Shown here one piece after another: positions 18,116 through 63,040 of a stretch of DNA of 64,000 nt. The position numbers and the translations under genes were made by a program. Within the stretch, counting starts at the first letter, position 1. Every line of letters starts with the position of its first letter. The DNA comes from Microbotryomycetes sp. JL201 (taxonomy: Eukaryota; Basidiomycota; Microbotryomycetes). Under the pieces are notes generated by a model. It saw only the letters and a program-made list of their open reading frames with translations. It searched no databases and had not been told where the DNA came from. Location: NCBI GenBank assembly GCA_033819885.1, contig JAQYUZ010000054.1:1-64000 (forward strand). The letters run 5' to 3'.

Positions 18116-20678
18116 TCATTCACTTGCCAGCTCTTCTACGCTGTACTTGCGAGGCGTGATTTTCCCCGTCTGCAGATTGACGCAGACGAATCGGCTTTCG
18201 AGGGCGCGTAAATCGTTGATCGTGGCCTCTTGTTCGTCGAGTCCGGCGGCTTGCAGAATCTTGCGACATACACTGACAGTTTTGGCATCGAAGATGGCGA
18301 CGAGACGCGACTTGAGGCTGTTGACGTTCAACTGTTTCCTCGTTGCGGCGCAGAATTCCGGAAAAGTGCCGAGCCTGACGCATCCAAAGCCTGGCCTCGG
18401 ATCAAAGTAGACAAAAGTTGAAGTTGCCTTGTTGAAGATCTCGTCGCTGTACTGCTGCTGTACAGAACTGGGGCTGTATTGCAGATCTTGCACGCTCGTC
18501 AAACTCAGAATTAGCTTGATGGCTGCCGTCCGGATCCGATATCGAAAAGCGTCCATGTCCCTCGCAAGTCCTGGAAGCGCTGATAACATGTCACGCGCTT
18601 CTACCACGCTCGTAGACCTGTCGTCCGTATTCCACAGTGCTTTGACGGAAGGGAAACGTAAAAATTCGTGCCAGCGATCTGGCAAGAACAATGGAGCACG
18701 GTCATCTTCTGGACGCTCTCCTCGATGACCGAGTGCAAAAATCCATAGCTCCCTGCCCAGATACTTTCGGCGAGCTTCTCTGGCACGACGAAGTTGAAGG
18801 CGCTGAATGCCCTGGCGCATCTGGGTCCAGGCTGCTCGCGTGTTGATCAGTGTGGGGCTCCGAACATCGCGGTCATTACGAACCTGGTTCGTCTTGCGAA
18901 GGACTTGATTTTGGTGAACGAAGCTGGAAACTCGGAACCCTGCCTTCGAACTCGACCGCCCAAACTTTTTCCTTGTAGAGAGTGATTCTACAAACAAGTA
19001 TCAGCCGAATTCGGCAATTCCAAAATCTGACAACATGACTCGCTCTTCAGCGGTCCACTGGCAGGCCTGCAAAGCTTGCGACACGTCTCGCCAGCGCCGC
19101 AAGAGAGAATTTTGGCGAGCCTGTCTAGCAAGGCGCTTCTTCTCCGACCTTTCGTGCTGCAAGCGCCAATGTCTCTGTACATTGTTGAAACAGAGTGAGC
19201 TTCGAAATATTATACCCAAGCGATCCAGTACCCACGTTTTGCGCGTTTTCGATTGTTTTGCGTCGAGCCGCAAGAAAACCAGCAACCTTACCCTTGACCG
19301 CTCGCTCATCTCCTTCATTCAAGTGCACTGGACGCGAACGAGTGCCACGCTTACGTACACCTTCTGATTCGCGCGTAATCTGATCGATCTCGTCTACCTC
19401 TTCAAGGCTGAACAGCTTTTGATTCAGCTCCCAGAGCTCATTTTTGTCGTAGAACCGCGCCGAATCTGCCATGGTTAAGTGGTCAGTGGCGAGTGCAACC
19501 TTTGGCAGATGCTTTTGACGCACGCCCGAATCCGACACTGTCGAGCGATCGATCTAGGAACGGAACTATGAGCGTCAAACGCAACATGCGCTCTGGCGCA
19601 GCTCACTGTAGCAATGTACTTGCTGAACTATTTTCTTGAGCTGGGGATGGACTCGTCCGAGAAACTGGACGAGCGCAGGCGGGGGTGGATTGAATCTGGC
19701 GTTCGGTACACAGATGGAGCTACAAGATCCGCAGTAGTTCTCAGGATGCGCTCGTTCAGAAATAAAGAGATACGGACCTGGCGCGGATGCAGTCTTGGCA
19801 ACGGCGCTGAAGGCGAGCCAAGTCTGGACCCAAGTATTCAAAGGTTTTCCCACAAGTCTGCGGGGACGGGCTCAGTTCCTTACAGCGTTGACTCTGATGC
19901 TCACATACCTGACAGTTTCGGCCAAACAACAAGAGCACAAATTGGATATCGGAAAGCTCGGTGATGAAGGTGAGGTCATTCTCTTTCCGAACCGTTCCCC
20001 AAACCGGCTTGACTCCGTCAGACATCAAGACTTGATGCAGAATTTTACTTGTTTCGGCGAGGTGTACCAAGTCGGTGCCGTCGAGGTACCCAAGAATCTG
20101 ACATAATATCACGCTGTCAGCTCATTCGGCGACAAATCTCTGTGCCGCATTTCACTCACCTCGTACAGTACATCAAAAGGAAGATTGAAGAATGCGTCCA
20201 GCGACAGGCTGTCGTATTTTAACTCTGCTTGAATGTCGTCTTCTTCCACCTTGACTATCGCTGGTCGCGTGATCGAAACAGCAGATTCCGGGCTCATGCG
20301 CGGCTTTTCGTGTGCGCGTTCTTGGTCTTTGTCCCGTTCTGCAGCTAGAGAAACAGTGCGATCAGCTGAAGAAAAATCGAGATTCGGTGGCACAACGAAT
20401 TGCTGCGGAGGTCAGGCGATCTGTGCGCTCGACTCGCTGTAAACGCTCTCAGCGGCATAACATGACTAAAGCGTAGCCACACAACATTAAGAGCGAGCTT
20501 GAGCCTGTTTTTGTTCTCGCTCGTGCTTTGCCTGTCGCACATGAGCGGCGTCAATCGCCGACTTACATTTGATGCGCTGCACCTCGCGGTCTTGCTCGTC
20601 CATACCAATATCGCTGCTCTCAATCTCGACATACGACACCTTTGGCTTGCGCCGAGCGCGAGGGCGGGCGCAGGCCAT
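18116..20678 (-). CDS. F-box protein A with CxxC-CxxC module (paralog of genes at 33.5-36.0 and 60.8-63.0 kb)
   Basis: Exons: 20678-20567 (KPKVSYVEIESSD leader), about 20365 or 20344-20160, 20097-19909, 19857-19778, 19719-19607, 19537-19236, 19174-19032, 18971-18116. The F-box spans FFNLPFDVLYE | ILGYLDGTDLVHLAETSK and continues to KPVWGTVRKEN. It is followed by NCQTCGK...CQDC, a pair of CxxC motifs likely to bind zinc. Later exons are charged and helical, then a C-terminal domain with LPDRWHEFLRFPSVKALW. F-box proteins recruit substrates to SCF ubiquitin ligases; the target here is unknown. The acceptor of intron 1 has two options. A 63-nt in-frame segment starting CAG|GTTCGT inside the last exon could be another intron. 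Six exons carry well-formed GT/AG junctions in phase. Confidence 0.72.
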
Positions 20679-20710
20679 GACAAAGTCAAAGGCAGAATTG
20701 AAACGGACTG

Positions 20711-20718
20711 TCACGTGA
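20711..20718. promoter_or_regulatory. TCACGTGA palindrome upstream of F-box gene A
   Basis: Perfect 8-bp palindrome 33 bases 5' of the F-box A start codon. Same sequence recurs upstream of other genes in this window. Binding is inferred. Confidence 0.4.
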
Positions 20719-20873
20719 TCATGGCTTGCCTCGCGAACTCCGCTAAGGTGTCGGTCAGCCCGTTCGCAAGTGAGTGCAATACAACCCTGTTATTGCTCAT
20801 TGCATAACCAGTGAAAATACATAATCACATCCTGTTCGCGAGTCTTGACTCCGCAACGTCAAAATGGTCTGCC

Positions 20874-22262
20874 TCACGGATCGCCAGTGCCGTCCGTCAG
20901 AGCCCACAGATACCAGCAAGCGACGGATCGGTAAGGTTCGAGCGGTGCCATCAACTCTTCCATCTCGTTCGGCGTGAGATAAATGTTGCCCCTTCGTGAG
21001 AAAGAGGATAAGCTAGGGAATCGTCCGAGAATGGCCTAGACTCACTTGAGCTTCTTTCCTGCCAGCCTGGCCTTCAATACACCCGGCGTCAAATTATTGC
21101 TCGTCGCCGGGAAAACGAACGGGTTCTTGGGTGGTTCGGGTACGACTGCTTCGGGTGTGACTGGTTCCTCGAGCGGCACGTCCACTGCTCCCATTGCTCG
21201 CAAATTTTCAATCGTTTCTTTCTCTTCATTGCTTGGTGTAGAAGGCGTCGGATATGACAAGACTGGTGCTGTCTGCTTGTTGGCAGGCGTCTTTGGCTCG
21301 GCTGCGGCAGTTGTCGGTGTAGGTGTGGCCTCTCGCTGCTTTTTGCGAGCGTGAATCGCAGGCGTCGAATGCGGATCATCGCTGTACCATCGACACAGCG
21401 ATTTTTGGATCCCCAAGTCTCCCCATGGACAAACATTCGGCCGTTTTGACGAGAAGATGAGGCTGTCCAAGAGCATGCACGTCAATAAAGAGCAAAACCG
21501 GTATGAAAGGAGCAATACTGACAACATGTGCACCGTCCAGACGCCAATGCCACGCACGGCGACCAGGGTCTTCATGATCTCTTCGTCATCCGCTTCCCAA
21601 AGCTTCTTTGCATCAAGCCTGCCGTCGTGAAATCTTTCTGCTAGTTCGATGATGTACTCTGCCTTGCGCTGACTGAGTCCGGCTGATCGCAATGTTGCCA
21701 TTTGGTCTGGCAGGTTGACGATCTGCGCTGGCGTGGGAAACGGTGTGTCTTCCGGTCTCGGCGCCGTCGTCGTTGGCGGAGCCCTCTTCTCTGGCAAATG
21801 TGGGTAAAAGATGCGTACAAACTTGTGCTGGATGCTCCTGGCAGCGAGCCAGGACACTTGCTGGCCGATGATGCTCGATACGAGCGACTTGAACGGATTG
21901 AACGTCTCTTTATGCTCTCCTTCATCTTCACCTTGAAAAGCTGTGCACCTGAGCTTGTCCATCAAGACACCCCAACGCGAGTCTACGCTCTCCAAATGTC
22001 GCCGAGCATCCGCAAACTCGAACGTCAATGCCGGTGGGTGCAGCAACACGCCCTGCTGCTCTGCAACGTTGTCCGACTCGATGGCAGCCTGGTGTATAGC
22101 CTGCTCGTCAGCGTCTGTCGTCGCTGCCTCTGTCGAGCATTGCGCAGTCGCCGGCTGGCGCGGTGGGGCCGTCTTGCGGCGCTTGAGAGGCTGCACAGCA
22201 ACAGCAGGCGCTGTCCTCTTTGCCGTGGAAGCAATTGCCGACGCCGAGCGAGTGACGCGCAT
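20874..22262 (-). CDS. AlkA/Mag1-type DNA-3-methyladenine glycosylase (HhH-GPD)
   Basis: Three exons (22262-21523, 21462-21046, 20991-20874), about 424 residues. It removes alkylated bases in base-excision repair. A Lys/Arg-rich N-terminus is probably a nuclear signal. The HhH-GPD region has NPFKSLVSSIIGQQVSW, LSQRKAEYIIELA and the hairpin LVAVRGIGVWTVHMF, followed by the PWGDLGIQ block with the catalytic Asp. A long Pro/Thr-rich insert separates this from the C-terminal helix LTPNEMEELMAPLEPYRS plus WYLWAL. That last piece is in a small third exon: exon 2 appears to stop (KKLK then TGA), but the TGA is part of donor GTGAGT. ATG at 22262 is the first in frame. Confidence 0.9.
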
Positions 22263-22977
22263 CGTTCGACGTGTCGGTGGCGGCGTGTCAACTTGTCCAG
22301 ACTGGCCAGGTTTCAATTTGTGATCGAGTCACTCTTGGCAGACACACGCAGCTCATCGGTGTCAAGACTGAAACTCCTTCCTTGTAAACTATTTAGGAGG
22401 GCACCAACAGCATTCGCGACAGACGGACTTACCTCCTGTCTATAGCAGCGATTGACATCTCAACAACGCCTTCGCCGCCGCGTCTGGCTGCGGCAAAACG
22501 TGTCGAAGCTGATTCCCATCACAGTCAGGTGGGTCACGAGTCCAAACATGTTTCCGAGTCAGCGCACAGCGGTCTCGCAAGTCGGATCGGCCCGCAAGAC
22601 ATCGGAAACAAGACGAACGATGGCCTGCAGCCCATGTCCTCTACGCTTGGTGCGACAATCATAGTCGCATGATTGCCAGTCTTCCTGTGACAGTGCAAGC
22701 CTATGCTGCGTCGTAGCTTGGGTCCCGACTTCGTACCGAACAAGCGACCGTGCACTGCTCACAAGAACTTGCACGTACGGCTCAACCACATTCGCGACGC
22801 ACGAGACCATCATGTGACCTTTCGCGCGCAAAGAAACACAATGCAAGCCGCCTCGAGAGGCTTCAACAAAACTGACTCTCGCTTTGCCCGGCGCTGCAGG
22901 CGAAGACACTGTCGGGCGATCTTTTGTTCCGCAAATGAGTCGATACGAGTGCTGCTCGCCGCTGTAACTTTCCAAGG
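22263..22977. other. Divergent intergenic region, no supported gene
   Basis: 715 bases between the glycosylase and ATRIP-like start codons. A minus-strand open frame of about 185 codons (22559-23113) crosses it into ATRIP exon 1, but it has no ATG start and no recognisable motif, so I do not call it. Confidence 0.5.
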
Positions 22978-25900
22978 ATGTCGCAAGACGAGTTCGACGA
23001 GTACGATTCGCTCTTTGATGACGTGCCGGAGGAAGCCCTCGCTCTCGCCGAAAGCAATGCGAGAGCGTCAAAGGCCGCAAGTCCCGCTGTCGCTGCTGCT
23101 CCTGTCCGTCCATCGGTATACAAGCAGCAAAGGCAAAGACCGAAGCCGACGATTCTGCGACCGCCGCAGAATCCGGTCCCTCGGCCGATCCAGCCTCTGC
23201 CAGCCGCTCATTTACCCTCCGAGACAGCTACCTTGTCTGCTCCGGTACATAATGCGCCAGCGAAGCCGTCGCCACTAAAAAAGCCCCGTCTCGAATCGAA
23301 TGGTCCGGCACTTGGTCGCTACAAGGAATGGGTCGACCCGAATCCATTTGCAGATATCCCTTCGCAACGACCCAGTGTCGTCCAAGCTAACAGCCACGAT
23401 GTAAGGATAGGCTCCGTGAATGTGAGCGGCCCGGCGGCGGCCCCTCAACCTCGTGAAACAAACGCAGCCGAAGAGGACATGCCAGAGATCAGCGTCATGC
23501 CCAACGGCACGTATGCTGCAAGTCGGCCTGCTCCGATTCAACACACGGATTCGGCCAGAATCTTGCCACCACCTCGCCCACCCGAAAGAGACTTGTCGGC
23601 GCTCAAAGAATGGGGCGAAGGTAAAAATAAGGCCACGACGACAGGAAAGCCTGTGGCTTGGGCGACTGGATATCTCAGCGGACGACCAGACGATGCTGAG
23701 GCAGAAGAGCAACGCAATCTGAGGCTCGAATTGCAGAAGCTGCAGGCCGAGAATCGCAAGATTCTGGCCGAGAAGCAAGACATGCAGAAATCCCTGGAAA
23801 CCACGCAGGCGAAATTGAAGAAGTCTGATACGGAGAGAATGAGCAAGATTGGCGAAAACACCATCATTAGGCGAAAACTGGAAATGGTCAGTCCGCACGT
23901 AATCGATCGGAGGTGCTCAACAACCTGACAGTAAATGTTTTGAATTGGCAGGTCAAGAAGGAACACGAGAAGGATATGACCACAGAACACATGTATAAAG
24001 AAGGTCTCCAAGCTCGGCTCACAGAGACTCAGCGCGAATTACGCTTGCTGAATGAGCGCATGAACATGAACGAAGCCTTCAGAGTAAGTAGCACCATGGC
24101 GGGGCTCTCCAGCGTGACCGCTACTTATAATCTAACAACCTGTACCAGAAACAGGAAGCTGAAACAGCACGTCGAACCGGACCATCTCAACGGCCAAACA
24201 CCCGCCGGGCGTCCACCGTCGCGCCGCCGGTAGTCAGCCCATCCACAATTCGAAAGGCGCCGGTTGCACATGGTTTCCCTGGCTTTCGGAACGCTTTCGA
24301 AGAGAAGCCTGCATCTAGTCCGGTCGTTGATGGTAAACCTCGAGAGACGGTCACTCCTCGTTCGAGTCCCCAACGAAACAAATTTGTCACGCCAAATCGG
24401 GCGATAGCAACAGATGCGGATGAGATGTTCATCGATGGGGGAATGGTAGATGCGGCTCAAGCTCAAACCCGAGTCGCATCAGGTCCTGTCAGATCGTCAG
24501 TACAGCACGACGTGAGCTTGCTGATTTGGTGGAACGTTTGACTGGCGAATGTTGAGCTCCTTCAACGCAGTTCATCTCTGCTGCTTTGATGCACAGGACT
24601 TTGCAGCCTGGCAAACCGACTGCGGAATCGAAGACGGGCTCAGGCGATGCCTCTGCTCGTTCGAGAACCTCCGCGATTGCACCACCGCGCGAGCAGGCAG
24701 ATGGACTGGCGGTTGGCGCATCGGTCGGACTGTTGAACGATGGGTGCGATATGACAGCTGACGTCGCTACGTTGCAATATCTGGCGGGCGTCAAAATAGC
24801 CGGCAGCTCTGATCACCTGCGCGACTTGCTGATCGCACTAGGCGTACACCCTCTTCACGCTGGCTCATCTTTGACCAGCGCCAACGACATCCGTTTCGTC
24901 CAAAGGGCTTGTAGTGCACTCGATGGACTCGTCAGGGACTTGAGCACCGGTTCAGACATGACGCCACTGTGTCGCTTGCTCAGCCTTATCGCTTGCATCG
25001 CATTCAGATGTCGTCTTGCGGCAGATTACTGGCTCGGAACCGCAAGTGTCTTTTCGGACGCCGCCAACGGTATGGAAGTCGACGCGTCTCCGTCGTCCAA
25101 GCTCGTTGGACTGTTGACGCAGATTTTGGCCAAGTATTGTTCACCCTCGGCTGCCGCGAACAACAAAATCAACGACAAGTTTGGTTCCTCCGGACGCAGC
25201 AAGAAGGAAAAGTCAAGGCGGACACGGACCAGCACAGCTCGTCAGACCTTGGCATCGAAAGCAGGTCGTGCAGTTGCGCCTGTCCAAGCGAACGTCGTAG
25301 AGTTGGACGAACAAACGTGCCTCGCACTGACCTGCGCCGTCCTTGAGGTACTCGAAGCCTTGGTTTGGCACTCGCACTCGTTCTCTGCAGAAACGTGAGT
25401 GCGGTCGAATCTGTACGTGAAACCGAATATTGACCGACTCTCTATTCAGCTTCGTTCAACTGCTATCGCACGAGTCTGCAATGTCTCATCTGTTGAGTCC
25501 GAGGCAGTCGACAATCGTACTGAAGCGTACAATTGGGATGCTTTGTATTTTGGCGAGCTGTGAGTTGGCGCGATTGTTCATGAACGGCGGCGTCGACTGA
25601 AATAATGCACACTCCAGACCCGGACTTGTTCAGGCCAATAGTGGGCATTCAGCTTGGCAGTGCGCCGGATTTACGCGAAAGCAAAGTACCGATCTTTGAA
25701 CGCGTGTCAACTTTGATGCTTCGACCGACTTCTATCGCCATGGTCGCGGAAGTAAGGTGAACATGAGATTCAGCAAAGGCAAGCTCACTCATGACCATGG
25801 TCATATGCAGGATCACGCACTAGATTTTGCTCTGACGTCGTTGGTGACGACGTTGTCGACGAAACATGTCGATTCGATCACCTTGATAACGTTGAGCTTT

Positions 25901-26559
25901 GCCTTTTTACCAACGCTCATCAGCAAGATACACGAAGATGCTTGTCCGTGTTGGGACAAGGACGGCTTGCTTCTGTCGGATCAAACCAAAACGCTTCTCG
26001 AGCTGTGAGTGTGCGATCGTACCGTCATTCTTGTTCGAATCCTTGACAATCCGCCGTCCAGTTCGATTGATCGACTAGCAGCAAATGTCCACCTATTCTA
26101 CTACCTTGCGTCTGCTCCGACGTCAATGCTACTTATCGGTGAATTTTTCGCCCAATCCTCTTACGCAAGCGTCCAGGACCATTTCTACTCGGCTTTCGGG
26201 ATGCTAGCATTTGCTGGTGTGCCAGAATGGGCTCGAGACAAGCCTAGCATTATCAGCACATTGTCTGGTCTGGCAGGTAAGTTCCATTGATAGTTTGAGC
26301 AGGGTCGAATGAGGAGCTGACAAGCATTACCCGCAAAGAACTGGCACAAGATGTACTCGAAGATGTCTGTCCAAACGAGCTCGACTCTATCTGCGAATGT
26401 TTTCAGATTGAAGCGAATGATGACAGCGTGGAAAACGGAGTTGCGGACGGCGCACAGGATGCGCGGATGGACGTTGATCCTGTCAATGATGAAGCTTATC
26501 TCGAACTGGGAGATGACGAATTGGCCATGCTGGATATGAGCCAATCTGGTTCTCACTAG
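22978..26559 (+). CDS. ATRIP: ATRIP/Lcd1/Rad26-like checkpoint protein
   Basis: Nine exons: 22978-23886, 23952-24083, 24149-24511, 24607-25394, 25450-25559, 25618-25751, 25811-26004, 26062-26276, 26339-26559; about 1021 residues. ATRIP brings the ATR/Mec1 kinase to RPA-coated single-stranded DNA. The N-terminus DEFDEYDSLFDDVPEEAL resembles the acidic RPA-binding motif. A coiled coil runs over about residues 240-340 (EEQRNLRLELQKLQAENRKI, then KIGENTIIRRKLEMVKKEH across intron 1). Then come a Ser/Pro-rich linker and an alpha-helical C-terminal half (LCRLLSLIACIAF, VLEVLEALVWHSH). The acidic tail ends DMSQSGSH. Exon 3 has a clean frame but few motifs. Assignment rests on overall architecture. 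Confidence 0.72.
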
Positions 26560-27003
26560 CATCTCGTTGTTGGCGCTGGTTGTATTCGTATTATCCTGTT
26601 GTCGGCAAGCGGAAGCTTCGACGACGGCCAAACGGGATCGTGAATCACGTGACCCGCGGCAGCTCCAAGTCAACCCTAACAGCAAAGCTGGACTAGCACG
26701 AAACATGCTTTCTGAACCCGACTCAGTTGTTAGCGTGGTCTGGGGCATCATGACGTTAGAAGCCGCCTGTCTCATCAGAGTGAGACATTGAGCTCGAAGC
26801 CCAACTGGGCGATCTCAAAGGGGGACGACAAGAAGGCGCCTGCTGCTCGAAACTGAATCTGCTTCCCGGCACGCGAACTCGTCCATCCACATCTCTCGAC
26901 ATTCAAGAGCTTGTCGTGAACCTCGGTAGACAAGCATCTTCCTTCGTTACAGGCCGCCACACGGCCGAGAAGGTGCTTTTGCCCTTCGGGAGACGGGAAA
27001 CAA
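26560..27003 (+). promoter_or_regulatory. Intergenic region with TCACGTGA at 26645-26652
   Basis: 444 bases between two plus-strand genes, no supported gene. The E-box palindrome lies about 350 bases upstream of the fucosyltransferase-like start. Regulatory role inferred. Confidence 0.35.
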
Positions 27004-33466: not shown

Positions 33467-35977
33467 CTAAGCGTCTTCGAACCGGATATCGGGAACATCA
33501 AGTGACTGCGTTGTGCCCAAATCCGCGGCGTGTTCGCTCAGATACGCATCAACCTGGTTCAGAAGTGCGTTCAGTATCGCGTTTGACCGTATCAGACGTC
33601 TTGCCCACCAACTCTACAAAGCTCATCCTGTACGAGTAAAGCACGGTCGTTGGTCGGTCGTGCCAAACAAAGCCCGGCGGAAGTGCTTCGGCATCTTCGA
33701 TCGTTGCAGACTCCAGTTCTAGTCCAGCGGCCTGTAGCGCAGCTGTGTAGATGACGACATGGTGACGAGAAAAGTTATGGCGCCACATGTCTTCCAATTG
33801 TTGGATCAGAATACCTTCCTCGCCAAAGTCGAAATCTTGCAGGAAATCAGGAAACTCCATCAGATCGCAATTTACGTCTGTCTTGAGAAAGAACGCATGC
33901 CGAGCTTTGCTGAACAGTGCTTCGTGGTAGGGTTCGAATATTAGGTGGAAATCCGGGGAGCCGAGTTCGGGTGGGCCTGGCTCGACAGCGGCGAGCCTCA
34001 CGACCAGGTCTCGACCTTGGGCCCATATCTCAGTTCTAAAGCCGACGATGAACTCCAGGGAAGTTTCCATGAAGAATTCGAATCTGGCACAAGTGGGGCG
34101 AAGAACTTGGATGGGCTCCCACCAATGTCGCGAATCTTCGACAAAGTCTTCCAGGGTTGGTAAGGCATTGCATTTCTCATCGGTCAGATCACGGGCTCGA
34201 GCGACAACTGTCGGCCATTGACGAGCAACGTTGTCCATCCTGTTTCGAACGTCGACGACCAGCGGAAAGATTTGTTTGATGAATTCGTGCAACTGACGCC
34301 AGGCTACGTGCCAAGGTAAGGTATGCAGCGGATCACTGCATCAGTCTCGGAGAAAACCCGACGACAGTGTGCATCACTCACCCTGTGGCGATTCATTCGG
34401 CAATAAATCTGGGCACTTGGGTCTCACCTGGCTTTTGATATCCTCCGGAAAAAGCGGGTGGAAGAACACTAGGATCCAGAGCCGCAGTCTGTGATCGTGG
34501 TGTACAGTCAGTCTTTTGCGGAGTGATACTGAAACAGGCATTCCTGACTCATTGGCTGTCCAACCGGCTACTTCTAGTTGAGGTTGTGACCGGTGCCAGC
34601 GTCGCTGCTGAAATAAATCACATATAGTATTCAATGCTTGCGCTTTCTGGGACAGCTGTTTCTCGATCGAAGTCTTCCGCTGCGTGGAAGCTCTCAGTCA
34701 CCGCCACTCCGAAGGCAACGCCACTCACATTGTCTGCTTGTTTTTGGGCAGCGGTGCAACTAGCCAAATACTCGGCAAACTCCGTCTGTCCGACAATATC
34801 TTGCCCACTCGCGAGCAATCCGGCTGTGCTGTCTCCTTCCAAGGCGTGCAAACGCCGGTTGACCTTGACGAGTTGATCGGAAAAATAGCACGTACGCTCT
34901 ATCAACGAATAGACACCAATCGGACACCGTACCAAGTCGCCCTGGCGTGCGTAGCGCATCACGCATTCAGTGAGTTTCTCGTGCACGTGACCGAGCATTT
35001 CGATCGTGTTCGGGCAGTCCATGTACACAGTTCTGACAATGATCAGAAGCTATAAGCTCTCGGCTGTCGTCTTGTATGTTCGCCCGCAAGACGTACTGGT
35101 TGCTTGCGCACTCATAACAGAGTCTCTTCAAATGCCTCCAATCCATCGAAGCTTCCTGGACGCCGCAATCCTGGATCGGGATGTCAGCGAAGTTGCCGAC
35201 ATTGTCAAGCCTTTCTCGGCAGCTGACTTGGCAATGTTCTCCAAAGCGCATTTGGACGAATGCTCGGTCGTCAAGCTTCTCGAACCCGAGGCCAGTCAGG
35301 TTCTCCTTTCGGCGCAAGCATGCCCACACAGGCTGAGCCATCGGGGAATGCATCATACGTCGCATCTGCTTGTTAACCTCGTCGAGCCTGAGGAGATCGG
35401 CCCCCGAAAGGTATGAGCAAATCTGAGGGAGACAACTCAGCCTTTGACACAACCAAAAAGACAGTGGCGACGCGTTGAACAAACCTCGAAGAATACGTCT
35501 CCAGGCAGACTCGCGAATAAGTCAAAGAATGGCGAGGGCTGTCCGGCGATCTGCTGCGATATGTCATCTGCGCTTGGTACATCGTCTCTGCGCGGAGACT
35601 TTGAGCATGACGGCACTGCCTCCGTTTCGACCGGGTTCCTCTTGGCTTGTTCTACTGAAGGGCACAGAAGAGAGCGTCAGTGCGTGCCGAGGACGCGACT
35701 TGTTTTGGGGCAATCAACGCGTCGCGCTCGAGCCTCTCCTGAGACGGGTCTGCCTCAGATTATGGCCCTGAGAGCATCAAAAGCGCAGGATCAAGATGCT
35801 CAGTGGACGAGCAACAATGGTCCGTCCGAGTCTCACGCAAGCGCAGGCAGGAGGCAAGCGAATAAACGGACCTGGCTTGTGCAGATGTACTTGACCTGCT
35901 CCGTCAATTCTAGTATCACCTTCATTGGGTCTCGGCTGAAAGACGACGCGTGGTCGGCATGAATTTTCCGTCGCCAT
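33467..35977 (-). CDS. F-box protein B with CxxC-CxxC module (paralog of A and C)
   Basis: Proposed exons: 35977-35920, 35654-35485, 35422-35228, 35170-35097, 35032-34729, 34679-34382, 34303-33609, 33553-33467; phases add up. F-box: FFDLFASLPGDVFFE | ICSYLSGADLLRLDEVNK, then QPVWACLRRKENL. The zinc-like module is HCQ | DCGVQEASMDW...RLCYEC, with an intron after CQ at the same place as in genes A and C. Later exons match gene A in order: a charged helix ending near RWHRSQPQLEVAGWTANE, CPDLLPNESPQ, and a C-terminal domain finishing with RMSFVELVDAYLSEH. The first exon (MATENSCRPRVVFQ) is weak; its 265-nt phase-1 intron parallels gene A. Likely SCF adaptor, substrate unknown. Confidence 0.68.
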
Positions 35978-40751: not shown

Positions 40752-43700
40752 ATGCATATGGTCAAACCACTTGCTCAAGTCGCTCACTTGGCGTGCACAT
40801 GTCGCCCAACTGCCGGCACCTTTAACTTGTCGCGTTCATTGACGACTGCGACGTCTGTGCTGCAACGACAGCCCGGATCAAAGACACGGACAATTCATGA
40901 GCGAGTATCGAACCGAGTCACCCGCTTGGCGGCTATCGGGGCGCGGCTTGAACACCTCAGCCAGCGATCGCCGAGCTCGGAGCAGGCGTCATTCGCAACA
41001 GAGGACGACGTAGAAGCTAGACAATTGCGGCAGCATCGCAGATTCAAGTTGATACCACGTCGAGACCAGTCCAACAAAGTCAGATTACGGTCTGCCGTCG
41101 GGAAGCGGGCAGGTCTCGTTCGCCACTTGCATTTGGTATCGCCGATCGATTCACCGCTTCACGCGCGCAAACTACACACCTCAACGATCGAAGAGATATC
41201 ATCAGCAGCCGATAGAATCCAAGCGGAAGTAGAAGAAGACGTAGCCGAGCCTCGCCGCGTACACAATCCGAGAGCGAGATACCCGCGAGATGAAGAGCCG
41301 GTCCCATTTGGCTCACTGGTCCCAGGTTGTTTTGTCGAAAGTCGAAGGTGCGTTGCGCCCAAGGTCTGGGTTGAACTGTGCTGATTAAGCGAGGTGATAG
41401 ATCTGGCACTCTCGTCCAAGGCATCCTCGTTGGCAGCAGCCCAGAGCGTCCTCGCAACATGCTGCTACTTTCGCCAAATGCAGAAGGAGAGACTGCGTTT
41501 GTCGAGATCGCAGCGGACGACATCACATTCGTCTTGAGCAAATTCATCACTCAAGCACAGGCAAGGGACAGCATTGGTTTGCCACCAGATCATCCGATGA
41601 TCATGAACCTTCTCACTAAAATCCGACTCTTGACGATTCAAATCGAGCGCGACGTCCGCACTCTCGTCAGCATGGGCTTCGCCGAATTGACTCGATCCCG
41701 TCGCGGCCACGACGATGACGAGTCTTGGTCGACACGGAATGCAACGGGGCGAAACACCTTTACGACCATTCGCATTCTCAAGGAGCTCAAGATTCCAACA
41801 CCGGCTCACCCTTCGCTTCACTTGGCCGCGCACCGTCTCATGTTTGAAGACAGCCTGCATTTTGTAGCAGACCCCGACTCGGTTCGTACGACTGGCGTCT
41901 TCACTCTTCGCAATCCGAAAGAAGTATACAACTATGAAACTGTGCGAGAATGGACAAGGAACCGGACGAAAGAGTTTGTCGATTTCGTCGAGAAAGCATG
42001 TCGTGTACGCCAAGCCATCCGAGATCGTGCACCAAAGGTCGCAGCCGGGGACAACGCCTCTATGCTCGGGATTGACGTATTCCATGACCAATCTCTGACG
42101 TGGTCCGGTAACGACCGCACGATTCTCCGCTTTCTCAAACGATCGCTCGAGAACGAACGTGCTTTTCAAACGCATCCGTATGTCGCCATCGTACCAAGCA
42201 TTCTCAAAGCAGTCGAAGCGCATTCAGGCGGACGGGAAGCGTCTCTGTCTGAAGAAGATCAGATACTCACGTTCGATCGTCAACGCACTCGAGAGTTTCT
42301 CACGGAGATCGGTGTCGTGGCTCCGTGGGAGAATTGGGTGGCGCACGAGTTGCCTTACGAGATGAGAGCAGAGACACCCGAGCCGAGCTTGGCTGCATTG
42401 ACTCGGCCTGCCGCGCATCAGCGTGTGCAAGACGAGCTCGAGAATGTTCGAGCTGACTTTGGCACACAAAACGTCTACGTCATTGACGACATTGGCGCAA
42501 AAGAGCTGGATGATGGCATATCTATAGAGTCTACTGCGCAGACATTGGATGGTCGCCCATCATGGTGGGTTCACGCCCATGTGGCGGACCCCACCGGCGT
42601 TCTGCTTACCCCGGGCAGCAGAGACGCGACACCGGGTTCGAAATTGTCTGAACGACTCGTATCGATAGCGTCTCGACGCGACCATACAGTGTATTTTCCC
42701 GAGCAAACGTTTCCGATGCTGCCCGAACAGTTCGTAGAAGATGCGCGACTCAGTTTGGGCTCCGCGGAGGGTGCACAGACTACGCTCGTGTTTTCGACGC
42801 GTTTGACTGAAGACGGTGACATTATCGACACAAAAGTGTCGGCGGGCAGTGCAAAGCGCTTCAAGCGGCTGACGTACGCCGCTGTCGACGAGTTTCTGGG
42901 TCATGCGCCACCACCTCCGCCCAAGCGACTCAGCCTGTGGCCAGCATCGCAGAGAGGGCCGGAGCAAGAGGCCAATAAGTCAGTTCGGCAGCTAGAGAAC
43001 GACGCCCTGAGTTCGGATGTTCAGGTGCAGAACGATATCAAACTGCTGCACAAGCTGTCGTCGGCGCTGATGCGACGGCGAGCTCAAACAAGCGCGCTCT
43101 TCTGGACTTTTCCGTCTTTCGGAATAAGCATTTCGCCCCAATTGAAAGGACACTTTTCAGTCGACCCGCGACCAGTGTTTTACAAAAACTTGCCATCGAT
43201 CACGATGACGCTGCCGACTCGAGACCTCGCTTGCACTGATTCTACGTTCACTCCGTCTCAAGTTCTCGTATCCGAGATGATGGTGCTGGCCAATCGTACA
43301 GCAGCGAGATTCGGTGTCGAAAAGGGGGTTCACTTGGCATATCGCTCGCAATCCGCGCCGGCAATCTCGCAAGCTACGCTCGACCAAGTTTTGGCCGCTC
43401 GCAACCCATTGACGGGCGAGGCTAGCGCTTTGCAAGTCTTGCGTGCCGGAGTCGACTTTTTGCCTGCGATGACGAGCATAAAGCCAGGTCATCACTGGCC
43501 TATGGGCATTCAAGACGAATACGGATACACTCGTGCGACGAGTCCTTTGCGACGGTACGCCGACTTGTTCACGCATTGGCAGATCAAGTCGATGTTGAAA
43601 CCGGGCGCCACAAAGCCCGTTTTCGAACAAAGAATGGTCGAACGAGAGATTGAACGGTCCGAGTTGATCAACAAGGCTCGTGGTCGATTGTCGAAGCACG

Positions 43701-44026
43701 CCGAAATGTCTTGGGCCGCATACGTTCTCAAACTCAAACTTGACAAGGTTCGACATCCCGACAGACAACCCAACTTGCCAGAGGACGAGTTTGCTGAACA
43801 TTTGACGATGGCGGGGTTGACTGGCGTGGCCATGCGCGATCCTGCGTTTTCGACGATTGACACGATGTGGACCCAGGCTGTTTGGGTGCAAGAATTGGGT
43901 TTGAGAGCTACGTTGACGGGCGACAGACGCGTTGACATGCCCGAGAAGGGGGACATCGTTAACGTCAAAGTTGAAGACGTTGTCGTGGGTGCGAGGAGTC
44001 GGGTGCTCGTGTCGAAGCGCATCTAG
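40752..44026 (+). CDS. DSS1: Mitochondrial RNase II/RNB-family exoribonuclease (Dss1-like)
   Basis: Two exons (40752-41347, 41401-44026), about 1073 residues. The N-terminus (MHMVKPLAQVAHLACTC...SRSLTTATSVLQRQ) is basic and Ser/Thr-rich without acidic residues, like a mitochondrial presequence. The RNB catalytic domain begins VYVIDDIGAKELDDGISIE, with the clustered Asp residues that bind Mg, followed by HAHVADPTGVL and DHTVYFPEQTFPMLPE. A later block TSPLRRYADLFTHWQIKS carries the conserved R-R-Y-x-D. Yeast Dss1 is the exonuclease of the mitochondrial degradosome. The C-terminus ends in a short S1-like strand region (GDIVNVKVEDVVVGARSRV). Convergent with the NME6-like gene (117 bases). Confidence 0.85.
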
Positions 44027-54620: not shown

Positions 54621-54712
54621 GTCGTCGCAGGTGCAGTCGCAGGTGAAAAGGTCGACTCGAGCTCGAACCGAAACGCTCTCCCTTTTGACATCAACCTCGA
54701 CTCGCATCAGCC

Positions 54713-55672
54713 ATGCCGTACTCTTCCTCTCAATTTGACAAAGCTGTCGAAATTATGCAAGTCGTTGTCCGTCCGTGTGACACGTGCATGCATGCGATCG
54801 AACGAGCTCCGCTGACGTCGTCCGCGGCCTCGCGTTGGCGTGCCTCGATTGCTCGTCAACAGCGGCAGCTTGCCAAAGGACGGCCCCATCAAGCCATCTC
54901 AGAATGATCAGCTCACTGTGAGTCGTCGCATGCCCGTCTCGACAAGCACACCAGCGAATGCACGGGCGCTCCGGCGACCTTTTGTTCGGCCAACAAACGC
55001 ACATGACAGCAGCAAGAACAACTTTGCGACGGCGTCATACACATCTCACAAATTGCTGGTCAAACCGAGCTATTCGCTACCGATTTCTATGCGCGCTTGC
55101 ATTCAAACACGCGGCCTCTCGGCCGAGTTGCCCCAACCGGTCGAGCGCGCGCTTTCACATGCATCGCATACAATCCCGTCTATTCCGATCGACTTCCGAA
55201 CGCATCATTGCATCAGACTCACCACGCTTTGTTCCATGTCTCGAAACTGACACAAACATGATCCGCATGCGCGCCAGTTTTACGGACTGTACAAGCAAGC
55301 GACCATTGGCGACGTCAACACGAGCCGCCCCGGCATGATGGACTTTACCGGCAAGGCAAAATGGTCAGTTTCAAGCGCGAGCGAGCACACGCCTGAAGCA
55401 GCATCACTAGCCAAAAATCACGCAAGGCCAATTCTGACCAGCGGGCCCATGTCTTTGTAACAGGGACGCGTGGAAGAAGAACGAGGGCTTGTCCTCTGAC
55501 GAGGCAAAGTCAAAGTATGTCGAGGAATTCATCAAGATCCTCGACAAGGTCGACCACGAAGAGTCGCAGAAGCACAAGCAAGCCGTCAGTTCACGTATTT
55601 CCTACACTGGCTTTGCATGTGTGTCCGCTGACATTTGATCGGCTCTGCTGCGTACAGGTCGAGTCGGCTTAG
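54713..55672 (+). CDS. ACB1: Acyl-CoA-binding protein
   Basis: Five exons (54713-54756, 54863-54917, 55278-55363, 55464-55584, 55658-55672), 106 residues. ACBP binds long-chain acyl-CoA in the cytosol. Motifs: [53 protein letters not shown] and the C-terminal helix [12 protein letters not shown]. Intron 1 (54757-54862) begins GCAAGT; no GT donor in exon 1 has the right phase. Intron 2 is 360 nt, the longest I resolved in the window. The promoter must lie within about 92 bases or overlap the 5' coding part of CPS1, which runs the other way. Confidence 0.9.
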
Positions 55673-55809
55673 GAATGATTTCCTCCCACGATCAAGGCAG
55701 TGCGTTCTCGTCAATTTGTAGACTTTTGAACTCTTGAAATACTCATTCGTCAAATATGATCGAAACCATGCAACCGAAAAACTCGAATCTAACAACTCCG
55801 ACACCTTTC

Positions 55810-57614
55810 TCATCTATCATCACACCTCTCATCTAAAAACTTTTCAATCTCGTCTCGAATGACCTTTCCAGCATCATTTCCTGTCCAACCTCGTTCCTTT
55901 AATTTTCGCTTCTCGTGCTGACCAAGTTCGAAAGCGTGTTGAACGTGCATTTGCCAACGACCCGCTTCAAAGTCTGTGCGTGACAGTTCAACGGACGTCC
56001 CTCGTTGACGCATCAAGCGACGCAAGCCAAATTCCTCGATGAACAAAGGTCGAGGGACTGCAGCCAGGCCACAGTGTACGGTGAGTGTCGGAAATAAATG
56101 AAAAGGACAGAACGACCCACCGTAAACGAATGGAGTAGCGGCCGAGATCGTTTCCGAACAAGTACCGTAACCCTGTGCGCCAAAGGAATGTCACCAACGC
56201 GACTCATCCACCCGCTCGCACACGACAACTCACCAGTTTTCCCAACACAACATCAGCAGTCGCAGTCAAATCTGGGACGTAAACGTCTTCATGACTTGCA
56301 AAGAATTTGTCTGGCAAATCCTTTTTAATCTCGTTGCCGTTGCCCAATCCGCAAACGATTGCGATCCAGCCTGGAGGTAGCAGACCTGCCATTGATGGGT
56401 TCGTCGATGCAGGTGAAGGAGGTGACAAGGCCCCGTTGACGGTCGTTGACGAACCGAATGCAGGACTTTCGGCGAGGGGAGTCGCCAAAGGGCTTGGAGG
56501 TTGACTTTTCGGCCTGGGTATGCTCTGTCCCCCAAAACTGACCAACAGAATCTTTGAATCGTGCAGCTCGGGCGGAACGTTCAAACTTGACAGCAATCTC
56601 GTTCTGAATGCAGACTCAAACACGTTTGGCGAAAGAGGTCTGACAATCAAAGGCACGTCGACGACTTTACCTCTCGGAACTTTGGACGTCGGGCGAGACA
56701 AGATGGCTTCAACTTCGGGTGTAAAGCTCGACTTGTCGTTCGTGACCCATTTGCCCGCGGGCATTGGCACGTCCGTGTCGAACGCTGGGATTGGGATGAC
56801 TCCGGGTAGACGAAGCAGCAAATCCGCGCATTTGTAGTCTTCTATCGTACGATTGACGAGAGGATCTAACAGAGACGCTGGCAGAGGCGGTTCGGGCGAC
56901 ATGTCGTGAATCGTGGGAGTGGCGGGATGCGAGAGGTACGAGTAGCACGAATCGAACGTAAAGCTGCTCCCGAGTGTCAGTATTGAGACTTATTGCTTTG
57001 TTCCGGTCAACGGTTGACCTACTTGCTGACGATGATGCTAGGGATGCCTGCGCCTGCAGCGGCGGCGCTGAAGCTCAACCGGATTAGCTCTTTGAGCGAT
57101 TCCACAAGCCGCACTCTAGCTAGCTCACCATCCCAGGAACGTCGAGTCGCTCAGGACGGCGTCAATATGCTGCTCTTTGAGCCATGCCACTTCTATCGCC
57201 AAAGTCTCGTCCCGCTGATCGACGAACTCGTTCAACACGTCAAATGTCGCCCTCCTGTCGACGTCATACGCTTTTGGCTGGACGATTCCGGCGTCAACGT
57301 TTCGTTTCCGGTACGTGGCGTATCGTGGTAAACGAGGCAAGGGCTCTGACGTTGAACTCGTCGCCGCCGCCGTCGTTGCTGCAGGGTCCAACACGGCCAC
57401 GAACGGTGTCGTAGGCGCATTCGTGACGATCGCGACGTCGTGGCCGGCTTCAAGGAGGCTGACGGTCAGCGCAGACACGCGTGTCGCGTGCTGTACCGAT
57501 GCGTAGTCGAGATGACAAGGTCAGTGACGCGACATGCACGCAGACAGACGACCGCATGCTTACTCCGTAGCCATGTCCGCTGCAGTAGAACGCAAATTTG
57601 CGCATCGTGGGCAT
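55810..57614 (-). CDS. Glycosyltransferase-like protein related to the N-terminal domain of L-arabinokinase
   Basis: Six exons (57614-57564, 57490-57129, 57067-57023, 56963-56234, 56172-56121, 56057-55810), about 495 residues. Reads as a GT-B protein: FAFYCSGHGYG | HATRVSALTVSLLEAGHDV, IEVAWLKEQHIDAVLSDS, AGAGIPSIIVSNFTFDSCY, VLGKL | GYGTCSETISAATPFVYVPR and PLFIEEFGLRR. The GHGFGHATR opening and the GYGT-SE...PFVYVPR block match the plant ARA1 N-terminal half as I recall it. No GHMP-kinase half follows, so the domain stands alone. It carries a Pro/Ser-rich insert (56390-56520). Reaction unknown; it may be a UDP-sugar-dependent transferase. Confidence 0.72.
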
Positions 57615-58442
57615 CCTCGGCTGCGATTAGCCGGCGTGCGGGACGGGTTCAGAGGTGTCGCGCGCGTCGGCCTTGGAGGCTGCGGCAGTCGGAGGCTTGT
57701 TAGCAAGCCAGAGCAATATTCTCAGACGCCAATCTCGTCAATGTCATCTTTGATTGACCAGCCAGGGCTCGGACTTGCCGGCGAGACTCTTGAAAATGAC
57801 ATCACGTGACCTTTCTTTCGCTCGCTCGCACAGAGCTTATTCCAAGCCACACAGTTGGCGAGCATGGTACAGCTGAGCAATGCGCCGCATCAAATGCCAA
57901 GCTGGATGACGACAGTTGTCACTTGAACCTAAAGTCTCTCTGTGTCGTCAAAGCATGATCAAGCAATCGAGTTGCTCAAAGCAGCTCAGTGGTCACCACG
58001 TTCTCAAGAAAGATCGCAATTTGCTTTGGAGGTTACCATTCCCATTTCTGCTGGTTCCACACTCTCAGTGCAACAGGTGGCTGAGGTTGACTACCAAGTC
58101 ACGTGCACGTGCACGCGCACGCGCCTGTTCTCTTGCTCAGAGACTGGTTCGTGTCTGAACTCCGACTCGGACGCCTCGTCCGTCGCAACTGTGCATCTCA
58201 CAGCGTGCACCTGTCAGACGACCGAGTCAGTCGACAGGGCTCTCTGGACAACTGTCGCTCCCTCGACCCCCGGGCCCCCGCGTACTCACCGAGTCGTACC
58301 ACAATCGTCAGCCAGCATGGACCACCAGCCAGATGTCGTCAAAGAGCTGTGAGTTTTGGTTGGCAGGGCCATGAAGCCTCATACGAATGTACTGATGCCG
58401 CGCGACGCTACGCGTGCCTTGCCGCTTAGCACTCACCCCCGC
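57615..58442. other. Divergent intergenic region with E-boxes, no firm gene
   Basis: 828 bases between the ARA1-like and DUF7918 start codons. Holds TCACGTGA at 57802-57809 and an alternating CACGTG/CACGCG tract near 58098-58123. An open frame 57942-58352 (plus) lacks an ATG until 58317. That ATG plus donor GTGAGT at 58349 and an acceptor at 58429 could form an upstream coding exon of the DUF7918 gene. Confidence 0.45.
58098..58123. promoter_or_regulatory. Alternating CACGTG/CACGCG tract
   Basis: About 25 bases of strictly alternating purine-pyrimidine sequence containing two overlapping CACGTG cores. Such tracts can bind bHLH factors and are prone to Z-DNA. Function inferred. Confidence 0.4.
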
Positions 58443-59584
58443 ATGCCCTCGTTCAAAGCGTTCGTCCTTGTCAACGGCCAGCGTGTCAACGTATACAACA
58501 TCTCGCAAGTCGGACCCAGGACGACGGTGGGCTACATCGAAGCGAGTGACGACCAAGAGTTCGAGATTGGCTACGAATCGCTCGGGTCAGAGTTGCACAA
58601 AGTCAGCAAAGCATTAGATGTCACTGCGCTTGTCGACGATACATTGTGAGAACCCAGCCGTGAACTTTTTGTCACACTGTGCTGACTTTGTCCCTGCAGC
58701 GTTGACGCAAGGTGTTTTTATAATATCCCCGGGAACCGAGAGCCACGGCGTAGAACAATTGATGGATTCAGAGAGAACCCAGTGCGTTGAAATTTTGCTA
58801 CAGCAGGACCATTCTGACATGTTCGGGGCAGACGAGTATCCGACCGTTCAAGTTTGGCACTGTTGCACTGACCGACGATGAAGATCGTGTGCCGCAGAGT
58901 GAGAGCTTCCACAAGAATGTGGGCACGATCCAGTTAAAGTGCAGGCGCCTCCACGGCTACAGCACCGGGGCGGAAGCATCTTTCGGGTGCTTTGAAAAGC
59001 AGTCTCTCCATGAGGCGTCAAAAAAAGCGCGCCTGAGTCACCAAGCAGAGTCAGTTTGGACAGTGCTCGCAAGTCAGCTGATACGGCTGACTTTGGATTA
59101 ACCGATCAGACTCGGCGCTTCAAAGCACAGTCCTGATCTCGGTAGCTTCTGTACCCCGAGCTACATCGATCATCATTCAGACAAAGCTTTCGCCGTTATT
59201 GAATTCCGCTACTGCTCGCGCTGTGAGTTTGAGGAAGGACGTAGCAGCACTGATCGCTGATCAGCTTGCACTCAGTCCTGCTCGAGATTGGGGGACATTT
59301 GCCAGGTGAGAGAGACATGGTCATATTCTGAGGTGGCGCAAGAACTTGACTCATGCCAACACGCAGCCCATCTGATGCCTCCGGCTCCAGCCACGCCTCC
59401 GCCTCCGGCTCCCCTGCTTGACCCGACCCGAGAAAGTGACGACGAAAGCTCTCAATCCAGCTCTGAACTGTCACGCCTGCGAAAGCGGGTCGCAGAACTC
59501 GAACGCTCGAAGAACAAGAAGCGTAAAATTAAGCGAGAAAGAGCAGTCAAACCGGAACCAGGCGAGGTCGTGGTTTTGGATTGA
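58443..59584 (+). CDS. DUF7918-type nuclear-like protein
   Basis: Six exons (58443-58645, 58700-58781, 58832-59072, 59181-59222, 59276-59305, 59367-59584), about 271 residues. MPSFKAFVLVNGQRVNVY and GYIEASDDQEFEIGYES open a beta-rich domain, followed by PFKFGTVALTDDED, NVGTIQLKCRRL, HEASKKARLSHQ and AVIEFRYCSRFLLEI. The C-terminus is a basic coiled-coil stretch (LSRLRKRVAELERSKNKKRK), then KPEPGEVVVLD. The domain is common in basidiomycetes and has no known function. Exons 4 and 5 are 42 and 30 nt. The donor after exon 3 (GTCAGC) was chosen by phase and is the weakest junction. An upstream start at 58317 is possible. Confidence 0.65.
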
Positions 59585-60828
59585 ATCGTCTCGACGTGAC
59601 ATCTATCGAGCGAGCTTTGCTTTTGTCTTTTGTTTCCTCTTTGCTCGATGTGATTTGTTGTACCTTGCATGTTCCTTGGCTTGGCAACTTCTTTGGTTCG
59701 GGCCTCTGAGCGGCTTGACCTCTGTCCATGCGCCCTCGGCTTCAATGGCCATATCGCCCTCGCGTCGTACTCAATCGCAGCTGTGAGAATTCAATCAGCG
59801 GCAGACGGACCGCTGATCAGCTACGGGCTCGCCTTAGGTCAAAGACAATTTCACGTATTACGCCGCACGCGTCACATTTGAACCATTTGTCTGTCGTGCC
59901 TACAATGATTTTTGACGCAAGCAAAACCGACGCCCCAAATGAGGCAAAGAGCGGCAACAGGAAGAAGAAAGATTGAAGCAAGGGACCGTGCATTCGCGTT
60001 TGAAAGAAGTCGTGCAGCCTTTCTGGATACACAGCGAGTCCGATCTTGTATGCGCATCTGGTTGTCAATTGCGAGCTAATTCAAATATATGTGTAGAGCG
60101 CGAACTTGGCTTTCGTGTCGCGGAAGAGCGGTCCGCCGCACCCAGTAACCAGCTTCTGACGGATTACACTCAGCCCGTCAACCAATATGCGGACATCATG
60201 AAAGATATCTTGGAGATAGCGAGCATCTGAATTCCTTGCCTTTGCGTTGGAAATTGTATGTCAACGCTTAGATTCAGTGAGGTGGCGATGCATGGCTTGA
60301 GAGGGGGTTTTTTTTTTGTTTCGTGCTGAAAGTGTCCTCAAGCTCTTGTCCAAGAACTTGCTGCAGTGCACCCTTGTCCGATGCTATCCTGTGTCGGTCA
60401 CGTGACTCTCGCACCTTTTTATGTGTCTGTGTCTCGTTGCCGTTGCAAATTTGGAGACCAAGTGCCAGCCTGAGATTATCAGACTGGATGCAAGCGAGAC
60501 AGGGCATGTGTGACTTACGAGACCCATTTGCAATCCAGACCAGGAGCTGCTTTCAAAGTCCTCGGACTTTGCTGGCAGGCTTCGTTTGATTGGCTCATAC
60601 AATTGCTTCCCGCCGTGTCGGCTGCCCAACAAGCTCTCCATCACGAGCGCAATCACCGCTTGCCCCTGCAAACGAGGCGGAACAAGGCGTACGAAGAGCG
60701 CACGCGTCTCGCATGAACGCGGCCTGAGCACTGACGGCTAGCAGGCAGCCTGCTGACGTGCCATCCTAGTCGAGCCAGTCAACTTGACAGTGCTTTCACT
60801 CTAAGCTTGGAGCCCCACTGCGAGGACC
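59585..60828. other. Long intergenic stretch with TCACGTGA at 60398-60405, no supported gene
   Basis: 1244 bases. Open frames up to about 115 codons exist on both strands. One on the minus strand (59817-60068) contains a hydrophobic run (FFFLLPLFASFGASVLLASK) but has no splice or family support. A T-run lies at 60310-60319. I call nothing here. Confidence 0.5.
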
Positions 60829-63040
60829 ATGAGCACAAACTCAAGGCCTTGGTCGGTTGACGCTCATGCCTCGACCGACATCCTTTCGCGCATGCCGTTT
60901 GACATCCTGGAAGAGGTGCTTCAGAACCGTCAAGCCTGGAAATGCTGAGCTAAAAGTACCACTCTTGCAGCTCTGCCAATCCATGACAGGTCCTTCACTT
61001 GTCAAATTCGCCCAAACGAGCAAAAAACTTAAGACAAAAGTTGCTCTCCAAAGCCGCAAGACTCATCTGGTCTCGGCACTTGCATGCCGGATGCTTGCTG
61101 GACCTCTCCTGCTTGCGAAATGGTCTGAGTGCTCTCGACATGACGCTCCTGCAATACGGCACCAACTGTAGCGTCAGCCATCGAAAGCACTTGCTGAATT
61201 GTGCGATACTAACCATCTCGTCCACAAGCTCTGCGGTCGCGCGGTGGCCTACCTTGACTCTGTCAGAGGCGGCCTTGATTTCGTCGACTGGGTGGCATTG
61301 AAACGCGTGTGCGACGGCTGTTCTGCAGGGTATTTCCCTCAAAAGAATTTGAAGCGTTTCCAGTGCGGAGGTTGCAGTAAGCCTGCTTTGATATTCTCGC
61401 GCTCGCGATTGGGACTCAGTTCGACTCGTTCGTTGCGCAGGGGCTTGCGACCGTATATCCCTTGGTGCGCCGGTGATCTAAGGATGAAGAATGATGCTGA
61501 CCACGGTAAAGCTGCCGGCCGAAGGGAAGCATTTGCCGAGTTATGGCTCCGAGTCCAAAGCAAACAGGCTGTGAGCACCTTGAATCTGTTTCAAGCTCAG
61601 GCTTGCTTACTGACTGCAAACGTTTCAGGCTGGTTTGGACGCGAGTCGAGACCGGGCAAAGCTGGGTCGCGCAATCACCTGGGAACTTGGGCGCTTGGAA
61701 TCGACGTTTCAAGAGCAAGTAAGCGAACAGCATGCAGAACATTGGCACAAAATGGAACACTTGCTCTCCAAGAGCGGCTGGACAGAGCTGGAGTAAGTCG
61801 TGAAGCAATCCAGGTCATACTCAGGCAGAACTGAAGACGAGTCACGATCGAATTTGGGATGACGCCGTGTCGCAGAATCAGCATGCACAAATACAATGTC
61901 TATACGAAGACGGATTCTGTCGACTTTGATGTTGGTTCTGTTCCGAACCTGCAAGAATTCCACAAGCGTGACTTTCTCACCGGGACGAGCTCGAGGTCGC
62001 CGGCTTTGTGGCTGGCGTTTGGGCAGACGATCATCCCATCGTGCTTGCCGCATCAAAAGTCGCTTGGTGCGTAAAGTTGACGAGGTTTCGGTACCGCATC
62101 TGCTGCGTCGGGGAGCTGAAATTTAGTTCACAGACTGGCGCAGGTATCACGAAGACTTGCAGTTCGCCGCCACGCGTTGGCAACAAGAAAAGGCATTTCA
62201 AGAGCGGGAGGCCAACCTGCGTAAATTGCTCGTTGGCATCCGAGATGCTTTTATTCACACGAGACCGCGATACAAGCATTTCGACTGCGTCAGACGACTT
62301 GACTTTGAAAATCTGGCGGCCGCCAAACGGCTGCGCAAGTACTTGATGACCTTGTCACAGGAGATCGATGAGCAAGCCATACAGGGGCTCAGATCCGAGT
62401 TTTTCAAGCAAGTCGAGGACGTGTGCTTGCAATGGCAAATGCAGCGACGCATCGAAGGGATCAAGGCGATTCTTGTCGCAATCGACGGCCTCAGCAACGA
62501 CGAAGCCGAGACAGACATGGCGCGCGCTTTCGCCGCAAGCATCTATGACGAGGCTTTCATGCGTCGAGCGGTCTGTGTGCTGTATCCACCGGAACTTTCG
62601 GATCGGCCAACTACTTTGGATGAATACCTGAGCAATGGCACGTTCAATATTCACCGGTCAACGCCATCTACGGACGTGCCCTTGGAGGATTGCTTACCCG
62701 AGCGTGCGATCAAGTGCGCACGATCGTGCCTCGCTGCGGCCGGGTTGGATTTGAATACATCCATCGACGAAGTCAAGAATGTAAACGGCTGCTGGATTTG
62801 GCAGGACGAGCCAGGCGGAGTTGAGCGCCGTCGGACGTTCGGAAGAATGGTGAGTGTCTTTCCCCCACTCGAACAGCATGTTGATTTGCCTATTGACGAT
62901 TACGCTGCCAGGTGCTGCTCACGCGCAGATACAATGTTGAAAGAGTCAGATTTTTGCCAACCTCGAACTCGGCGCCATCTCGACCAGCCGAGGTCACAGA
63001 TTTGCGCACAGGTAGCAGTGACGCGCTAGGAGACTTTTGA
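60829..63040 (+). CDS. F-box protein C with CxxC-CxxC module (paralog of A and B), partly unresolved
   Basis: Resolved exons: 60829-60915, 60971 or 60990-61172, 61229-61329, 61441-61570, 61629-61792, about 62147-62849, 62912-63040. F-box: MPFDILEE | LCQSMTGPSLVKFAQTSK. The frame that gives this best match does not continue into NLRQKLLSKAARLIW: it is off by one base at an A6 run (61022-61027). An acceptor at 60989 avoids this but shortens the F-box by six residues. Zinc-like module: NCS | LCGRAVAYL...KRVCDGC. Then GRREAFAELWLRVQ, HKMEHLLSKSGWTELE and a helical C-terminal domain. Between 61793 and about 62147 I could not find one consistent set of exons, so damage there cannot be excluded. Confidence 0.55.

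Follow-up and report, generated by a model that had tools for sequence, protein, structure and literature searches.

It is well established that an F-box protein docks to Skp1 through its F-box and takes its substrate with its C-terminal part (PMC8744115), and in mushrooms F-box proteins are among the orthogroups specific to complex multicellular development (PMC8893723). F-box genes number 210 in Flammulina filiformis, of which 80 are developmentally expressed (PMC7567395), 164 in Rhodonia placenta (PMC7314958) and, by another count, 95 in Laccaria bicolor (PMC7991009). The three genes described here, A, B and C, lie in a window of 64,000 bases (bases 1-64000 of contig C50, which is 110,230 bases long) of the genome of the basidiomycete Microbotryomycetes sp. 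JL201 (17.15 Mb in 92 contigs). Like the SCF F-box proteins covered by the Pfam models PF00646 and PF12937, their products have an F-box followed by a long non-F-box region, but unlike those with repeats they carry a four-cysteine (Cys4) element and an unclassified C-terminal region; Pfam searches for WD40, LRR and Kelch repeats found none in A, B or the 546 aa piece of C that lies downstream of a frame change described below.

Zinc domains occur in several F-box proteins, including the zf-CXXC of KDM2/FBXL10-11, the zinc-binding region of EMI/FBXO5 and the MYND domain of F-box with MYND proteins. The proteins described here are similar to these in combining an F-box and a cysteine-rich element in one polypeptide, but differ in that the zf-CXXC, IBR and MYND models did not match A, B or the 546 aa piece of C at E-values up to 1. 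An F-box family of mushrooms has the layout F-box, W-x2-A-R region, C-x2-C, L-R-V-R-x-C-x2-C and a C-terminal GLDP-x-TAT-x2-D-x-D motif, and the combination of F-box and Cys module is common and abundant in mushroom-forming fungi. If the mushroom proteins do share this layout with the genes described here, the latter would belong to a family of a known though uncharacterised kind. Literature searches gave us no description of the Cys module, and those parts of the Flammulina and Rhodonia accounts that were available count F-boxes without reference to it.

Gene models

When the genes were read in all frames and then spliced, A, B and C were recovered at the coordinates given by a first-pass annotation of this DNA (Table 1), and the spliced models have the layout that it proposed, namely an F-box, the module C-x2-C-G...L-x-R-x-C-x2-C, a W-T segment and a C-terminal region. 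Its assignment of the F-box is borne out by PF00646 for A (score 25.1 against a cut-off of 20.5) and for the spliced piece of C, with X at the frame change (21.4, just over the cut-off); B falls under the cut-offs of both F-box models, its PF12937 match scoring 22.8 against 24.3. Introns are numerous, mostly of 44-78 bases with a few longer, and the least certain parts of the models are the first exons of A and B, the donor of the latter being uncertain.

The reading frame of gene C changes at a run of six A within its F-box exon, and the product would be only 95 aa long if the DNA sequence is correct. After the change, 546 aa are open across all introns. The change reflects either an error of sequencing or a real, recent disruption, and gene C may be non-functional.

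Table 1. Positions of the F-box genes, their introns and related loci. Positions without a contig name are those of the window; a slash within a motif marks an intron.
Feature	Position	Strand	Remarks
Gene A	20678-18116	-	9 exons, 648 aa; spliced model; PF00646 over cut-off
Gene A, exons 1-5	20678-20567, 20344-20160, 20097-19909, 19857-19778, 19719-19620	-	
Gene A, exons 6-9	19553-19236, 19174-19032, 18987-18884, 18831-18116	-	
Gene A, F-box intron	20098..20159	-	phase 0; LPFDVLYE/ILGYL
Gene A, Cys-pair intron	19858..19908	-	phase 0, 51 nt; within first Cys pair, NCQ/TCG
Gene A, exon with TCG...LQRRCQDC	19778..19857	-	
Gene A, last exon	18116..18831	-	C-terminal region; AAGLD...ATI..L..AL...FVC motif at its end
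Gene B	35977-33549	-	7 exons, 601 aa; spliced model; F-box-like Pfam match below cut-off
Gene B, exons 1-4	35977-35896, 35654-35485, 35422-35228, 35170-35097	-	
Gene B, exons 5-7	35032-34729, 34607-34382, 34303-33549	-	
Gene B, F-box intron	35423..35484	-	phase 0; LPGDVFFE/ICSYL
Gene B, Cys-pair intron	35171..35227	-	phase 0, 57 nt; within first Cys pair, HCQ/DCG
Gene C	60829-63040	+	8 exons; reading frame changes in F-box exon
Gene C, exons 1-4	60829-60915, 60971-61172, 61229-61329, 61378-61570	+	frame change inside 60971-61172
Gene C, exons 5-8	61629-61792, 61876-62066, 62134-62849, 62912-63040	+	
Gene C, F-box intron	60916..60970	+	phase 0; MPFDILEE/LCQSM
Gene C, run of six A	61022-61027	+	site of frame change
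Gene C, Cys-pair intron	61173..61228	+	phase 0, 56 nt; within first Cys pair, NCS/LCG; CTAAC branch-like site
Member D	C53		ACQ/TCD...LERRCQMC
Member E (L080)	C17:44.6-45.0 kb		RCR/SCG...LRVRLCAKC
Member F (L081)	C17:81.1-81.5 kb		ECE/KCG...LWSRLCDPC
Broken relic (L019)	C29:69509-69634		closest to B; stops and frame change in F-box exon
WD40 F-box protein (L001)	C6:279448-279579		single C-x2-C-G directly behind F-box

Shared introns and the split cysteine pair

A phase-0 intron divides the first cysteine pair of all three genes exactly as the first-pass annotation had it, and a second phase-0 intron lies inside the F-box, where it follows the pattern P-x-D-x-x-x-E/. Both are in the same place in all six members of the family, A-F, of which D, E and F are introduced below. 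The homology of A, B and C had nevertheless been understated, since they share further introns beyond the one in the Cys pair. A phase-1 intron ahead of the last exon is common to all three, as is a phase-2 intron 3′ of the second Cys pair, found in the spliced models of A, B and C and also in D (phase read by hand). Genes A and B both have a phase-1 intron in the N-terminal part, where their first exons are uncertain, and a phase-0 intron 5′ of the W-T segment, and A and C both have a phase-2 intron 3′ of that segment.

The Cys-pair introns of A and B have lengths that are multiples of three and contain no in-frame stop, so that the DNA alone permits read-through at both. Splicing at these two sites is strongly indicated by comparison with the other members, in which the corresponding intron either has a length indivisible by three (C, D and E) or contains an in-frame stop (F).

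The intron-split module is rare. When both strands of the 110,230-base contig were scanned, its pattern matched three times, at A, B and C and nowhere else, and the loci of D, E and F hold one site each, although the pattern was derived from this same family and the scan thus speaks to rarity and not to independent discovery. The split module was absent within 700 bases downstream of all 25 other F-box loci of this genome, a comparison set taken from F-box profile searches in which two weak matches (E-values 0.27 and 0.82) may not be F-boxes; the whole module without an intron was likewise present in 0 of the 25. A single C-x2-C-(G/D) occurs at two of these loci, and one of the two encodes a WD40 protein on contig C6 in which the pair follows the F-box in frame. 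This protein, whose PDB matches are WD40 proteins with FBXW7 among the best and which we take to be Met30/SconB-like, is unrelated-looking; it is like A-F in having C-x2-C-G directly behind the F-box but unlike them in having no R-x-C-x2-C half, no intron in the pair and WD40 repeats at its C-terminus. Half a module can therefore occur elsewhere. Chance likeness and unrelated fusions were considered as the origin of A, B and C, and are ruled out by the shared introns together with the split-module scan.

Relationship of the C-terminal regions

Sequence comparison points plainly to homology of the C-terminal region between A and B, which align over 609 residues with 22 % identity (E-value 2.6e-23). 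For the region 3′ of the Cys module, the A-B score was reached by none of 300 shuffles (z 12.4), the A-C score by 13 and the B-C score by 5. Corresponding numbers for the W-T segment are 0/300 (A-B), 0/300 (A-C) and 1/300 (B-C), and for the last exon 0/300, 7/300 and 5/300 respectively. In whole-length hhalign comparisons A matches B with an E-value of 4.6e-20 and C with an E-value of 7.6e-8, but B and C gave no match (E-value 0.28); by BLASTP, C matches B over the F-box module only (25 % over 120 aa, E-value 4.6e-8). The AAGLD...ATI..L..AL...FVC motif that ends the last exon of A is common to B and, weakly, to C. On these shuffle and hhalign results, the evidence for homology of the C-terminal part of C comes from its W-T segment and the positions of its introns. 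A divergent C-terminal domain had been ascribed to all three genes; this part is not unrelated, A and B being homologous over the 609 aa alignment and sharing introns, while the similarity of C to A or B in that part is weak.

Further members of the family

Genome searches gave three further members, D on contig C53 and E and F on contig C17, and E was first met as a sub-threshold Pfam F-box match. In each case the F-box exon led to the find, and of the four cysteines only the first lies in that exon, although the queries that found D and F did contain the Cys module. Reading on through D, E and F shows in each an intron in the F-box, a first Cys pair that is split and a second pair behind it, and the four cysteines are kept in all six members. 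The genome search for further paralogs that had been suggested as a check thus agrees with the proposal that these F-box genes are homologous paralogs and that their Cys4 module is conserved, cysteines and introns alike being common to six of six.

In the alignment of the six members the invariant residues are the four cysteines, one Arg, one Trp, one Pro and one Lys; the loop between the Cys pairs is variable and is longest in C. Pairwise identity over the module is 20-38 %, which indicates that the copies are old. E and F, which have 34 % identity over the module, lie in opposite orientation at a distance of about 36 kb and form a second loose grouping besides A-B-C. Presumably E and A are the members most like the F-box family of mushroom-forming fungi, and we take the sequences AAGLDEQEATINDL of A and AAGLELESATIEDA of B to resemble the GLDP...TAT...D motif of the mushroom proteins.

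A broken relic on contig C29 has the second C-x2-C downstream, as R-L-C-N-C-C. A later consensus search of the genome gave no further member, and a search for relatives of E in genome_contigs returned 117 pattern matches, none of them a relative. A match from the searches of this genome, C15:3852, is among the 25 comparison F-box loci. Two candidates, C78:134157 and C49:96223, had no module by eye on reading and were dropped. No fourth member was seen on contig C50, and a local tandem array is rejected. The six members and one relic are a lower bound, since the searches ran exon by exon. As judged from the sequences, the family as far as found is small, old and anciently duplicated, and is not a large recent expansion; the large expanding family envisaged in the first-pass annotation does not accord with six members and one relic in 17.15 Mb at 20-38 % identity.

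Domain recognition

PF00646 matches all six members at E-values up to 10, with a best value of 4.7e-7 and member E over the cut-off. When F-box profiles were run on the genome exon by exon, A and E were below the cut-off and B, C, D and F were missed. The intron after the first F-box helix accounts for this, causing exon-wise profile searches to miss or under-score A-F, so that F-box counts from unspliced genomes are too low; for this genome the size of the family and the number of F-boxes are each a lower bound.

The best match in a PDB profile search is the F-box of FBXO31 (E-value 0.0051). Member E alone had no PDB match, and a profile of the last exon found only chance-level matches in the PDB. 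Relatives of the last exon of A were sought in viral_contigs, with no match. Comparison of the Cys module with named domains in Pfam and PDB profiles gave no match above the cut-off, only the F-box being named, in line with the earlier remark that the module could not be matched to a characterised family; zinc-ribbon and zinc-finger Pfam matches were all far below the cut-off. Apart from the F-box, and with the exception of a sub-threshold C2H2 match in A, Pfam at E-values up to 1 has no match in A, B or the 546 aa piece of C. The lack of a match for the module means that there is no existing model for it, and not that it is novel. A structure model of the last exon of A, built from a three-row alignment with B and C, has a mean pLDDT of 46, which is too low to interpret.

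Proposed function

We consider it probable that A, B and C belong to one family of fungal F-box paralogs that have diverged from each other, and that their products are SCF adaptors with a structural Cys4 element that probably binds zinc, although C is frame-disrupted. In such an adaptor the F-box would bind Skp1 and so recruit the protein to a Cul1 (SCF) ubiquitin ligase. Immediately after the F-box, the Cys4 element would serve as a small structural unit, in all likelihood with one bound zinc ion, and would make the connection to the C-terminal region more rigid; that region would select the substrate. The cysteines of an F-box adaptor could instead serve without metal, in core packing, as disulfides or as a redox switch, a reading with which the failure of any known zinc domain to match above the cut-off and the unreliability of the only structure model (the last exon of A) are both compatible. 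We think this unlikely, however, since two C-x2-C pairs are kept in six of six paralogs at 20-38 % identity; two kept C-x2-C pairs are what a Cys4 zinc site typically looks like, and disulfides are rarely used in a cytosolic or nuclear adaptor.

The frame change inside the F-box exon of C, the stops in the relic at about 69.5 kb of C29 and the low overall identity between the copies might also be taken as signs that some or all copies are decaying without a present function, their cysteines kept merely by descent. This is distinctly improbable given that the nine exons of A and the seven of B form open frames with every splice site in place, that 546 aa of C stay open beyond the frame change and that the cysteines outlast most other residues. 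Least probable by some way is that the F-box serves Skp1 binding outside ubiquitin ligation, or works as a module for protein interaction in general; roles for F-box proteins outside the SCF have been suggested (PMC1712225), but there is no pointer to one in these sequences. An extension of the SCF adaptor reading, which we put forward only tentatively and regard as rather doubtful, is that the Cys4 element represents a domain without a name, which together with the F-box would form an extended, rigid Skp1 dock specific to basidiomycetes and constant among the six copies, whose diverged C-termini would each take a different substrate. A family that profile libraries see only as F-box now has complete gene models and a clear signature of introns and cysteines, and the Cys4 element would merit a Pfam entry if it proves to be a shared Skp1-side domain.

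Neighbouring genes

The five open frames of at least 350 aa in the window match the acyl-CoA oxidase, HhH-GPD glycosylase, O-fucosyltransferase, RNB and PH-domain families; together with the many introns of A, B and C, this is in keeping with a fungus. The RNB exoribonuclease domain is encoded by an 882-codon frame at 41378-44026 (+ strand), for which the PDB match is mitochondrial exoribonuclease II. Elsewhere in the genome, the frame downstream of member D (L014, about C53:72.1-72.7 kb) resembles, by eye, the beginning of an aldehyde dehydrogenase.
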